DNA of 64,000 nt from positions 62,001-126,000 of the forward strand of contig NZ_LAJH01000010.1 of NCBI RefSeq assembly GCF_001292625.1. Reading direction: 5' to 3'. Each line of letters starts with the position of its first letter. Positions within the stretch are counted from its first letter, which is position 1. Below the pieces are notes generated by a model. It had not been told where the DNA came from and ran no database searches. It saw only the letters and a program-made list of their open reading frames with translations. This DNA is from Shimia sp. SK013 (GTDB taxonomy: Bacteria; Pseudomonadota; Alphaproteobacteria; Rhodobacterales; Rhodobacteraceae). Made by a program: the position numbers and the translations under genes. Shown here in pieces: positions 26,492 through 30,313 of this stretch.

Positions 26492-26860
26492 ATGCGCAAT
26501 GCGGCACTGACGCTGGGAATAATCGCCGGCGTGATCGGGATGATCGTTGGTTTTTTCGGCTGGGGCTATACCGAAGCGATCAATCGGTTTGGCGAAATTC
26601 CTGATATTGCGGAGCAGGTCAATAACGTCGAGTTGGTGCGGGCAGGGGCCTTGTTGGCGCCTTTGCTGGCAATCGCCGGTGGCGCGATGGCAAAAGCACG
26701 CGCGCTTTGGGGCGGCGTGCTTTTGATATTGTCGGCGGGGGGCATGTATGCGGCCTTTGGGTTCAACGTCTTTACGATGTTCCCGATCAGTTTTGCCGGA
26801 TTGGGCGGTATTCTGGCGCTGGCGGCGGGTAAGCCGGACGAGCCAAAATCACACTTCTGA
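26492..26860 (+). CDS. Small inner-membrane protein (4 predicted TM segments)
   Basis: The 122-residue protein has four hydrophobic helices, with Gly-rich GMIVGFFGWGY and GGILALAAGKP ends. I do not recognise a family. It lies 45 bases after the ArsC-like gene and may be co-transcribed; it converges on the DoxX gene with a two-base gap between stops. Confidence 0.65.
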   Translation: MRNAALTLGIIAGVIGMIVGFFGWGYTEAINRFGEIPDIAEQVNNVELVRAGALLAPLLAIAGGAMAKARALWGGVLLILSAGGMYAAFGFNVFTMFPISFAGLGGILALAAGKPDEPKSHF

Positions 26861-26862
26861 GA

Positions 26863-27375
26863 TCACTTGAGGCGCAGCAATTTGTCCAAAGAGATCGGAC
26901 CTGCGCCTTTGGCCACCGAGACGAGCAGCAAGAATATCCACATTGCCCGTTCATCGATCAGGGTTTGGGAGTGATCAAACAACGCCCCGAGTTTGACGTT
27001 GTGGCCCAAAACGTCAGCGGCCGTTTGCACCACAACGAAACCAATCATGCCCAATGCCGCGAGGCGGGTGAGCAAGCCCGCGAGCAGCAAAACAGGCAGC
27101 ACGAATTCGGCCACGGTGCCAAAAAAGATCACCATTCGTTGAAAAAAGCTCATTTGGCTGACGTCCCACAGCACGGCTTCGGCGGCTTTCGGGAAAATCT
27201 GACCAAAGGCGCCTGCGGACGCGGAAAAAATCGAACCGTCGATCTTGAGTGTGGCTGAATTCCAGTAATAGACAAACAGAACAGCAACAAATGTGACGCG
27301 GGCAAGGGTTGGAACGATCCACGCCTGGCCGTCAAGGCGTTCTGCCAGATCATTGTGAAGTGTTATCGGGTTCAT
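26863..27375 (-). CDS. DoxX family membrane protein, last gene of the buf operon
   Basis: The 170-residue protein has four membrane segments in the DoxX pattern (GQIFPKAAEAVLWD, AEFVLPVLLLAGLLTRLAA, then VLGHNVKLGALF). DoxX proteins often accompany DUF692/DUF2063/DUF2282 genes. It ends the buf operon, 32 bases after the bufC stop, and would sit in the inner membrane; its role in metal handling or maturation is inferred from context. AGG lies before the ATG at 27375. Confidence 0.85.
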   Translation of the reverse strand: MNPITLHNDLAERLDGQAWIVPTLARVTFVAVLFVYYWNSATLKIDGSIFSASAGAFGQIFPKAAEAVLWDVSQMSFFQRMVIFFGTVAEFVLPVLLLAGLLTRLAALGMIGFVVVQTAADVLGHNVKLGALFDHSQTLIDERAMWIFLLLVSVAKGAGPISLDKLLRLK

Positions 27376-27407
27376 CGTGAAACCTCCCATGCGGTCCGTT
27401 TGGTTTG

Positions 27408-28160
27408 TTATTCCGTGAGTGTGAGGGATGTGACGGCGTTGCCAGCGAGCAGAAGGGCCAGCAAGGCGCCAAAGTCAAAGTCTTGTGCCGCCTCTGCGCC
27501 TTTGGCGGCGGCATCGCCCAGCGGGGCACCGGCCATGAGTGCAGTTAGGCAAGCAAAGCTGCCTGCGGATAGAGCGTGCGGTTTGGGGTCAAATTCGGTG
27601 CGGGTTATCAGGACATCTTGGGCGATGGCGTCGGGTTTGGGGCCGTCCGCCATGTTAAACGCCCAAATTGCGTGAATGGGCCATGGAGATTGTAAGGTCT
27701 CAACGGCTGGCGCAAAGGTCATGATGACGCTGCCAAGCTGTTCCGGGGCAAAGGCTGCGAGCGCGTCGGGCGCAATGGGCGGGACGTCGGCGGCGTGATA
27801 GCTGCGGCGGAGGGCAAGTTCCAGTCGGGCGACGTCGGCCAAATAGCCGAGGTGTTGCAATGGCGCGAAATCTGCGAGGAATTCCGGAAACCCCGCGCCG
27901 TAGTGCATCATCAAAGGCGACGCTGGCGGGGATTGGCGCAGAAAAACGCCGGCGATGGCCTTGAAATTTTCCTCACCCAACAGCTTGGCGATTGTTGGAA
28001 ACCCGGTTGCCAGCGCGTCGGTCAGCGAAACCGCCACGTTGTTGCGATAGACGTCAAAGCGGCGTCCTGCAGCGCGCCCTTTGTCATCGACAAGACCCAG
28101 CGGGCGATCCCGTGCGCCATCCAGCAAGGCACCGCGAAATTCGGTTTGTGAGACGATCAT
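27408..28160 (-). CDS. bufC: Bufferin maturation partner, DUF2063 family
   Basis: The 250-residue protein has an N-terminal DUF2063 domain (residues 3-95, with RRFDVYRNNVAVSLTDAL and FLADFAPLQHLGYLADVARLE), then a less conserved C-terminal part. In known bufferin and methanobactin-like pathways this family partners the MNIO enzyme and probably presents the precursor. It overlaps bufB by four bases (ATGA), so the pair is made together. Confidence 0.87.
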   Translation of the reverse strand: MIVSQTEFRGALLDGARDRPLGLVDDKGRAAGRRFDVYRNNVAVSLTDALATGFPTIAKLLGEENFKAIAGVFLRQSPPASPLMMHYGAGFPEFLADFAPLQHLGYLADVARLELALRRSYHAADVPPIAPDALAAFAPEQLGSVIMTFAPAVETLQSPWPIHAIWAFNMADGPKPDAIAQDVLITRTEFDPKPHALSAGSFACLTALMAGAPLGDAAAKGAEAAQDFDFGALLALLLAGNAVTSLTLTE

Positions 28161-29014
28161 GCCGGAACCTCGGCGAGCGCTTGCGAGGCACGGGCGGCTT
28201 CAGCGTGCAGAACAGGCCAGTCGGGAACATCGTTGTCCCACTCAATCAGGATCGGGCGTGGGCCAGACAGGGCGAGCGTGTGATCCAGAAGGGCCCAGAC
28301 CGGATCCACAACGGCCTTGCCGTGACTGTCGATCAACAGGGGTCTGCCGTGATCATCTTGGTCTTCGTCGTGGCCGCCGAGGTGGATTTCCCCCACTTTA
28401 TCAAGTGGGTAGGCGTCAATGTAGTCCTTGGGATCGGTATGCAGATTGGTGGCAGACACAAAGACGTTGTTCACGTCGAGCAGCAGGCCACAGCCAGTGC
28501 GGTTGGCCAGTTCGCGCAGAAAATCGGGTTCCGACCACGTGGATTCGGAAAAGGCGAGGTAGCTGGACGGATTTTCCAGCATCATTTGACGGCCGATGGT
28601 GTTTTGCAGCTGATCGATGTGATCAGACACGCGGGTCAGGGTCGCTTGGGTGTAGGGCAGAGGCAGCAGGTCGTTGAGAAATGCGCCATCATGCGTGGAC
28701 CATGCGAGGTGTTCGGAAAAAACTGTAGGATTGAGCCAACCAACGAGGTGTTTTAGCCGCGAAAGATGTTCGGGATCAAGCGGACCTTCGCCGCCGATAG
28801 ACAGGCCAACGCCATGTACCGAGATCGGAAAGCGTTCGCACAGATGGCGCAGTTGGGCCAACGGTCGACCCCCGGAGCTCATGTAGTTTTCAGCGTGTAT
28901 TTCAAGCCAGCCAACGTCACCGGGATCGGTGGTGAGAGCCGAATAATGCTGTGGTTTGTAGCCGACGCCGGGACGGTTGGGCAGGTTTGCAAAGTGCGGG
29001 GTTTCATCCAGCAT
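28157..29014 (-). CDS. bufB: Multinuclear non-haem iron oxidative enzyme (MNIO, DUF692) for bufferin maturation
   Basis: The 285-residue TIM-barrel-like protein has conserved metal-ligand blocks: GWLEIHAENYM near residues 33-43, HGVGLSIGG, FSEHLAW, MLENPSSY, LLLDVNNVFVSA, EIHLGGHDED and LIEWDND. These are the His/Asp/Glu-rich MNIO signatures. MNIO enzymes use iron and oxygen to convert precursor Cys into heterocycles such as thiooxazole. The ATG at 29014 follows CGGAGA; a longer in-frame extension to 29056 would lie in the predicted hairpin region. Confidence 0.93.
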   Translation of the reverse strand: MLDETPHFANLPNRPGVGYKPQHYSALTTDPGDVGWLEIHAENYMSSGGRPLAQLRHLCERFPISVHGVGLSIGGEGPLDPEHLSRLKHLVGWLNPTVFSEHLAWSTHDGAFLNDLLPLPYTQATLTRVSDHIDQLQNTIGRQMMLENPSSYLAFSESTWSEPDFLRELANRTGCGLLLDVNNVFVSATNLHTDPKDYIDAYPLDKVGEIHLGGHDEDQDDHGRPLLIDSHGKAVVDPVWALLDHTLALSGPRPILIEWDNDVPDWPVLHAEAARASQALAEVPA

Positions 29015-29048
29015 GGCAGATCTCCGGTATTGGCGTCGTTGAGGAGAA

Positions 29049-29097
29049 GGGTTCATCCCTTAGAGAAGAGGACGCTCCGGGGGGATGAACCCGGAGC
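29049..29097 (-). promoter_or_regulatory. Mutually exclusive hairpins between bufA and bufB
   Basis: In the leftward transcript GCTCCGGG and CCCGGAGC (29074-29097) can form an 8-bp hairpin. The 11-base element in 29082-29092 is an exact reverse complement of 29049-29059, so a second stem can form that disrupts the first. This is an attenuator-like layout located just before the bufB ribosome site. No U-run follows, so it may set bufA/bufB ratios by RNA processing or translation rather than termination. Confidence 0.5.
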
Positions 29098-29114
29098 CTC
29101 CCATTTTGGTTGGA

Positions 29115-29417
29115 TCAACCCGGGATATCACGCTCCAGCGCTTCCAGGGCCCCCATGCGAGCACCGCCATCGGCCATCGCAGGAATTTCCATGTCAGCGC
29201 AGGTACCAGCGTCAACCAGTTTCCAGGCGTTGCCCTGGTAATCTACGGTCGAGGTGCCAGCGCATGTGGTGCCGGGGCCTGCGGCGCAGTCATTCTGGCC
29301 AGCAAGAGAGACGCCATAGCATTTCTCTTTTTCAGCGGCGACGGCGGTCGTTGCGTGAGCTGCCAGTGCGGTTGCGACGGCGCCAGCAACGGCGAGAGTT
29401 TTTACGGTATTGGACAT
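29115..29417 (-). CDS. bufA: Bufferin-type metallophore precursor (BufA1, DUF2282)
   Basis: The 100-residue protein has an N-terminal signal peptide ([20 protein letters not shown], cleavage near ATTAVAAE) and four Cys in the mature part (EKCYG, NDCAAG, TTCAG, GTCADM). The [19 protein letters not shown] stretch is the DUF2282/BufA1 hallmark. Bufferins are exported copper-binding RiPPs whose Cys are modified by the adjacent MNIO. The ATG at 29417 is chosen because AAGGG lies eight bases upstream; an ATG six bases earlier would be too close to that site. Confidence 0.9.
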
Positions 29418-29423
29418 CTTCAT

Positions 29424-29637
29424 TTCCCTTTCGGTGTTGAACTCGGCCAGGCGTTTCTGCCTCGGCATGTCTCAACACTAAGGTTCCCGCGCTGTAACGC
29501 GCCAATCACACGCGTGTGTGCCACAGGTATGTTATCGGCTGTAACAATGAGCGGTTGGCACAAATTTTCAGCGCGCAATGGCGGCTTCGCGTGGGCGCAG
29601 CATCACGCGATCGGATCTGTAGCGGGGCGAGATATAC
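29424..29637. promoter_or_regulatory. Upstream region of the buf operon
   Basis: This region should hold the promoter for bufA (leftward). A GTTACAGC-type and GTTACAGCG-type sequence on the minus strand (about 29489-29541) repeats and could be part of an extracytoplasmic-sigma-like promoter, as buf genes are known to be controlled by such factors elsewhere. I cannot confirm a -10 element. Confidence 0.35.
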
Positions 29638-30140
29638 TCAAAAACCTGGGACGCACTGCGTTGATCTCCGCCTTCTGCTCGGTCGTCGGGATGGCGGTGC
29701 CCCTTTGCCCCGGATCAGGCTTTCAGCCCATGTTCCTTGGGCTTTTGGCGGGCCGCAGGGGTGGAATAGAATGTGAAAGTGGAAACGGTTTGCGCGGCGC
29801 GACAAACTTTTTGTGGCCCAGTCATCGATCGGAAATTTGGTCGGCACCAACACTTCTTCTTCGCGGAACAGCAGTTCCTCGCGCCAGTCCGAAAAAAGCA
29901 CGCGGTGTTGAGGTGATAGCCGTAAATCGGCACTCGCAAGGCCCGCGCCAAATGCGTTTTGGTTACAAGAACGGGGCGCAATTGGCGATTGTTACAAAGA
30001 TCAAAGGCAGAGACATGGCGCAAGTCGATCCACAAAATGCGGTCTGTGCGCCCTTCTGTAACAATTTCATTGCCTACGAGCGGCGACTCGATGGTGAGAT
30101 CACCAGACCAAGTCGCGATTTTGGTGTCTTGAGCACAGCA
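29638..30140 (-). pseudogene. Decayed Hint-domain gene with a frameshift
   Basis: Reading leftward from about 30140, one frame gives CCAQDTKIATWSGD, GNEIVTEGRTDRILWIDLRH and NRQLRPVLVTKTHL, which matches the first half of a Hint_2 domain. The match then continues in another frame as DLRLSPQHRVLFSDWREELL and EEVLVPTKFPIDDW (from about 29922 leftward), which matches the second half. A single-base indel near 29922-29930 therefore splits the domain. No good start is found upstream, and the reading ends near 29638. The closest relative in the window is the intact Hint gene at 61188. Confidence 0.7.
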
Positions 30141-30313
30141 ATTGGCGTCATTGGGGGCGATAGGGCCTCGCCGGTGGTCCCGTCCCTGCTGAATCAGATG
30201 CCCTTGCGCCGGAGATGTCTTCCAGCACCCGCCCTGAAACCAAATAGTCGGGCATGCCTGCGCCGTTTGTTTACGTCGCTTAACCAGCTTGAAGGGCGGC
30301 ACAAAAATGCAAA

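Follow-up and report, generated by a model that had tools for sequence, protein, structure and literature searches.

The window analysed here, a stretch of 64,000 nucleotides from Shimia sp. SK013, carries a complete bufferin operon (bufA, bufB, bufC and doxX, all on the minus strand between positions 26863 and 29417) and, upstream of bufA, a conserved promoter element made of two similar boxes. The host is Shimia-like, its closest named relative being Shimia sp. Alg240-R146, at 94% in BufB. The genes and promoter features are as follows.

29115..29417, minus strand: bufA, bufferin-1 precursor (100 amino acids; PF10048, DUF2282, 84.9 bits, cut-off 22.4)
28157..29056, minus strand: bufB, MNIO enzyme (299 amino acids; PF05114, MbnB_TglH_ChrH, 343.5 bits, cut-off 25)
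27408..28160, minus strand: bufC, DUF2063 partner protein (250 amino acids; PF09836, 86.5 bits, cut-off 27.2)
26863..27390, minus strand: doxX, membrane protein (175 amino acids; PF07681, 25.6 bits, cut-off 23.6)
29506..29534, minus strand: 29-bp double-box element (13 of 16 consensus positions; zero mismatches to a looser pattern)
29520..29534, minus strand: box 1, weak CenR-type site (matrix score 5.24)
29505..29519, minus strand: box 2, CenR-type site (matrix score 9.98; median of published sites 10.85)
29475..29480, minus strand: putative -10 element TAGTGT, assigned from column conservation, roughly 24 bp downstream of the double box

The original prediction, made from the sequence alone, had described four genes in this order on one strand, and four open reading frames (ORFs) were indeed found at these coordinates. 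Its assignment of the products to the DUF2282, MNIO, DUF2063 and DoxX families was borne out by profile searches, in which all four proteins passed their Pfam cut-offs; the DoxX assignment is marginal, at 2 bits over the cut-off. The four-base overlap between bufB and bufC was located at 28157-28160. With the ATG at 29417 as start, BufA has 100 amino acids, and an in-frame ATG two codons earlier would give 102; its N-terminus resembles a signal sequence, as judged by eye only. The four Cys residues expected from bufferin 1 are at positions 33, 44, 52 and 73, and all four are aligned in 129 of 129 BufA sequences. BufB, for which an internal Met at residue 15 offers an alternative start, matches PDB entries 3BWW, 8HCI and 7DZ9. 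The MNIO ligand positions that the original prediction had looked to were also recovered, since H81, H116, E161, D194, H225, D243, H245 and E272 each occur in 81 of 81 family sequences and align by eye in 3BWW and 8HCI; we take these eight invariant His, Asp and Glu residues to be the iron ligands. A phmmer search of BufC against the PDB gave no relevant match for an RRE-type domain and no solved relative; its length of 250 amino acids falls within the range published for partner proteins (PMC12452194).

The operon thus resembles the bufferin-1 (Buf1) clusters, for which the authors name a core of four-Cys DUF2282 precursor, MNIO, DUF2063 partner and DoxX (PMC12452194), and, judged by sequence, it is a chromosomal bufferin-1 cluster of standard gene content. 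For a comparison of loci, the best 80 of 565 relatives, ranked by BufB similarity, were used; further samples consisted of 25 genomes of the genus, 100 genomes, and 248 genomes of the family. The order bufA-bufB-bufC-doxX on a single strand is kept in 80 of the 80 loci, so that the gene order is not due to chance and, this core order being common to all of these relatives, the gene content is ordinary. DUF2282 was found in all 25 genus genomes, with two or three matches in 14 of them; the 4.05-Mb SK013 genome has a single DUF2282 match and a single MNIO match. The distinctive part of the locus is the promoter, which the original prediction had missed.

The promoter element, first seen as a conserved block in an alignment of 81 upstream regions, consists of two T(C/G)ACG-N4-YGTGA-like boxes placed 15 bp apart and 88 bp before bufA. 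When agreement at 13 of 16 positions was taken as the threshold for a hit, the element was found in 83 of 84 related loci compared to 7 of 1680 shuffled sequences, a count that is not independent because the pattern was drawn mostly from those same loci (locus L112, with too little sequence, was skipped). In L111, from a relative of Ruegeria pomeroyi, all 16 of 16 positions agree. A second, more weakly conserved block follows about 24 bp downstream, at the position expected for a -10 element. A strict version of the pattern, which SK013's own site does not match, gave 60 matches in 58 of the 248 family genomes (the reversed pattern, used as a control, gave 3 matches in 2 genomes), and 53 of these 60 are at bufA: 29 out of 30 for which flanking sequence was read, all just upstream of it, and, by coordinates, 24 of the other 30. 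Four matches could not be placed relative to bufA (genomes G131, G187, G217 and G309). With the looser pattern, a site was found at bufA in 25 of 25 genus genomes, in 24 of them without a mismatch and in G024 with one, and further one-mismatch sites occur elsewhere in many of these genomes. One of the latter, starting AGAGTGACGTGACGCAC, recurs in ten genus genomes, and in L234 (near 1501) it adjoins ORFs that, by eye, are ferredoxin-reductase-like and peroxiredoxin-like. Elsewhere in SK013, contig 13 has a zero-mismatch match to the looser pattern that may be real, in an intergenic region flanked by ORFs that look like a capsule kinase and an ornithine carbamoyltransferase (by eye); a near-match on contig 21 was rejected as it falls inside a molybdopterin-oxidoreductase-like ORF (by eye).

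The box, which was defined from bufA upstream regions prior to any comparison with published CenR sites, matches the CenR sites of Rhodobacter sphaeroides and Sinorhizobium meliloti. For R. sphaeroides, Table 1 of PMC9275681 gives 31 sites from chromatin immunoprecipitation sequencing (ChIP-seq), including ACACGAGCGCGTGAG at cenR and TGACGCGGGCGTGAA at an L,D-transpeptidase gene, and the authors place 28 of the 31 directly upstream of the -35; a matrix that we built from these 31 sites has the consensus TCACGCGATCGTGAC. According to the account of the srlA promoter, S. meliloti CenR binds AGTCAC-N6-GTGACT in gel shifts, with action at the -35 proposed (PMC9561847). The SK013 locus is thus like these two systems in site sequence and putatively in the position of the site, which in activated promoters lies upstream of or at the -35 (PMC9275681, PMC9561847), and it is unlike the R. 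sphaeroides regulon in that no bufferin gene appears in Table 1 (PMC9275681) and in that SK013 has two sites 15 bp apart. In SK013, the CenR-type site (TGA-N8-TGA, or GTCAC-N6-GTGAC) upstream of bufA, read in the direction of transcription, is best represented by box 2, box 1 alone being weak. Across the relatives, 63 of 80 loci score at or above the training median of the CenR matrix (shuffles, 2.4%), and 72 of 80 reach at least the 95th percentile of shuffles. The double-site score separates bufA more sharply: SK013 bufA scores 15.22 versus at most 9.17 in the 62 window genes compared, 79 of 80 loci score above all of these 62 genes, and an offset scan of this score peaks at 15 bp.

The regulation published for a related bacterium, Caulobacter, involves a different, metal-stress system. 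The gig/GIG operons presumably match the buf operon gene by gene. Those of Cupriavidus and Legionella are described as related and as copper or gold responsive in these hosts (PMC10304878, PMC5413113), and the account of the Caulobacter SigF/NrsF operons names DUF2282 and DUF692, reports induction by metals and gives the promoter as GTAACC-N16-CGAA (PMC3511200). Unlike in Caulobacter, neither this promoter nor NrsF was found in SK013: the best match to GTAACC-N16-CGAA upstream of SK013 bufA has 4 mismatches, and a search with one Pfam profile detected NrsF neither in the SK013 genome nor in the 24 other genus genomes. The locus also differs from the Buf1 account in lacking NrsF and in having CenR-type boxes as a pair; nowhere in the main text of that paper do the terms promoter, regulator or operator appear (PMC12452194).

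Across the family, the double box and NrsF are nearly mutually exclusive. The 65 genomes of the 100-genome sample that carry DUF2282 supplied a first set of 67 bufA loci. In this set, the double box was present in 0 of 12 loci from NrsF-bearing genomes and in 39 of 55 loci from genomes without NrsF, while the SigF pattern (GTAACC-N16/17-CGAA, up to one mismatch) was present in 8 of 12 and 0 of 55, respectively. A second set, drawn from the 248 family genomes, comprised 20 NrsF-bearing loci of 19 genomes (4 more NrsF-bearing genomes were left out) and 40 loci taken from the 95 genomes that have DUF2282 and neither NrsF nor the strict pattern. Here the double box was found in 2 of 20 NrsF-bearing loci, in 26 of 40 loci without NrsF, a figure that is low by design since genomes with the strict pattern had been excluded, and in 10 of 1200 shuffles; the SigF pattern was found in 8 of 20, 0 of 40 and 23 of 1200, respectively. 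Counted by genome, 2 of 28 DUF2282 genomes with NrsF carry the strict site, versus 55 of 150 without (Fisher p 0.0016, with relatedness disregarded); five NrsF matches that fell short of the curated cut-off were scored as absent. These numbers also bear on the suggestion that the bufferin-1 operon of SK013 is ordinary and that the host still relies on a SigF-type sigma factor whose NrsF is not recognisable. The reliance on a single Pfam profile for NrsF would leave room for such a factor, as the sigma factor itself was not searched for; however, the SigF promoter is missing from all loci without NrsF in both sets and has at best a 4-mismatch match in SK013, and we consider this explanation highly improbable.

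Rhodobacteraceae that retain NrsF typically carry one box. In 21 of 25 of their bufA promoters, a box (at least 8 of 10 positions) ends either 4-6 or 15-16 bp before a GTAA(C/A) -35-like sequence (the four loci without this arrangement are from G182, G199, G219 and G269), an arrangement seen in none of 2500 shuffles, and the two spacings are about one helical turn apart. Outside the Rhodobacteraceae, no such box is present at six NrsF-bearing loci, whose best matches reach 6-7 of 10. In the comparison with CenR sites, scores above the 95th percentile of controls were obtained for 20 of 25 NrsF-bearing Rhodobacteraceae, compared to 0 of 7 loci with and 4 of 11 loci without NrsF in other families. 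This distribution suggests that the box was present before SigF was lost. Conservation for a non-regulatory reason (e.g., a thrS transcript end or a structural RNA element), which the presence of thrS just upstream in 77 of 80 loci might favour, is difficult to reconcile with three observations: single boxes hold two defined spacings to the -35-like sequence; in L062, L100, L107 and L115, with thrS 0.9-2 kb distant, the element is still found at bufA; and the spacers between the arms of the element are not complementary. We regard a non-regulatory origin as very improbable.

We consider it likely that this bufferin-1 operon has a promoter controlled by CenR, as its sites predict. BufA would be made with a signal sequence, BufB and BufC would, as in published relatives, oxidise the central Cys residues of BufA, and the exported peptide would, by the same analogy, bind excess copper. 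In the relative fontiphorin, each Lys-Cys motif loses 4 H (PMC13097082), and a comparable mass loss would be expected on the two central Cys of BufA. CenR, a member of the OmpR family that belongs to the CenKR cell-envelope system, would activate the bufA promoter through two tandem sites next to the -35, whose counterpart in SigF/NrsF-keeping Rhodobacteraceae is usually a single site beside a SigF-like promoter. Since NrsF and the SigF promoter are absent from the SK013 lineage and two sites are present, control seems to have been handed from SigF to CenR, this being the direction of change that we infer.

A number of observations weigh against control by CenR. The SK013 element lies exactly at the threshold of 13 of 16 and is weaker than the sites of the family, box 1 scores 5.24, and a single site as good as the best one at bufA occurs in 6 of 62 window genes, with at least 15 places in the window scoring higher. 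Locus L099 lacks the element, three strict matches lie away from bufA (in G176, on contig 8 of G182 and on contig 22 of G255), and the related genomes are not independent of one another. The near-exclusivity with NrsF is also incomplete in both directions: about a third of the loci without NrsF (16 of 55 and 14 of 40, at the 13/16 threshold) lack the double box, and two NrsF-bearing loci have it at bufA, namely G219 (15/16), whose assembly is fragmented and has NrsF on a different contig, and G182 (13/16), where NrsF is a partial match of 34.9 bits. Furthermore, cenR was not found in the 1.26 of 4.05 Mb (31%) that were searched, the remainder of the genome not having been searched: a strict regular expression gave no match, a second one gave one PhoB-like regulator, and phmmer gave 10 matches, among them one full-length OmpR-type protein; none of these is a CenR candidate. 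A Rhodobacterales clade is reported to encode both CenR and CenK.

Other OmpR-type regulators might bind such sites, and the same operon could be governed by a different regulator that recognises a similar palindrome and answers copper directly, such as a further response regulator of the OmpR type or a repressor that senses metal. The failure to locate cenR in the part searched and the weakness of box 1 would both fit this alternative, as would the near confinement of the full double site to bufA, which a dedicated regulator would also give. By contrast, the box equals CenR sites known from R. sphaeroides (ChIP-seq) and S. meliloti (gel shift), its putative position next to the -35 is that of activated CenR targets, and no regulator gene recurs beside the operon in 8 neighbour gaps and 5 downstream flanks (ORFs inspected by eye, no family scan), so that an adjacent dedicated regulator was rejected. 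The regulator families CRP/FNR, CueR, CsoR, Fur, NrdR and ArsR/SmtB were weighed as candidates and dropped. Overall, a regulator other than CenR appears unlikely, with roughly one chance in five left to it.

Returning to CenR as the predicted regulator, we give about even weight to a broader scenario for the bufferin promoter of Rhodobacteraceae, in which a CenR site in helical phase was first added to a SigF promoter and a second CenR site took over in lineages that lost SigF/NrsF. Copper buffering would thereby have joined a regulon for cell-envelope stress, perhaps alongside L,D-transpeptidases, instead of answering to a copper sensor of its own. If this is true, the peptide would serve a general response to envelope damage, with copper as one of its triggers. 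The handover of operon control could then be studied in the family across a series of promoter states, namely a SigF-like promoter alone (in other families), a SigF-like promoter with one box, and two boxes. Bufferin operons are widespread, and a named candidate regulator with a site defined to the base makes the prediction testable in tractable marine strains. In the open-licence literature, we found no paper on how bufferin operons are switched where SigF/NrsF is missing, and, among the matches listed, none that joins CenR or CenKR with bufferin, DUF2282 or MNIO; a mention of CenKR with copper showed no link to bufferin. The bufA promoter is undescribed in the searched literature, and it is unusual and conserved; the gene content is already known.

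An L,D-transpeptidase gene is a CenR target in R. sphaeroides, the published target being RSP_1199 (PMC9275681), and single boxes were also seen at such genes here. In L135 (near 1501-1529; genome G176, which has no DUF2282), a strict double box precedes an L,D-transpeptidase-like gene by 71 bp, and none of the other 30 L,D-transpeptidase-like loci retains the full double site. In the upstream regions of all 31 (L169-L198 and L135), many of which are close relatives with one common sequence, a single box of at least 8 of 10 positions occurs in 26, versus 6.3% of shuffles. These single boxes would be in line with RSP_1199 and are a lead, not a result.

Several features of bufA and its surroundings were observed in addition. 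Many genus members (L019, L021, L022, L027, L029, L031, L032 and others) have a tandem second bufA, also with four Cys, between bufA and bufB. In genus genomes G005 and G012, an extra bufA-like gene lies away from the buf operon (L165 6113-6409 and L166 6079-6384, minus strand), without a double box (best 9/16) and without a bufB match within the 13 kb read. Between thrS and bufA in SK013, positions 29571-30258 (minus strand) hold the remnant of a gene for a Hint-domain protein of about 340 amino acids, which is broken in SK013 because its matches fall in two frames; the gene is open at the same place in L043, while L030 gives a weaker match and L168 has an ORF that looks similar by eye. At the other end of the operon, positions 26492-26860 (plus strand) encode a 122-amino-acid protein with no Pfam match, convergent with doxX and present in 69 of the 80 loci. 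Finally, the tail of BufA after its last Cys (about 29115-29190, minus strand) is conserved in many Rhodobacteraceae, approximately as LP..ADG..R.GSLE.L.RDLP.

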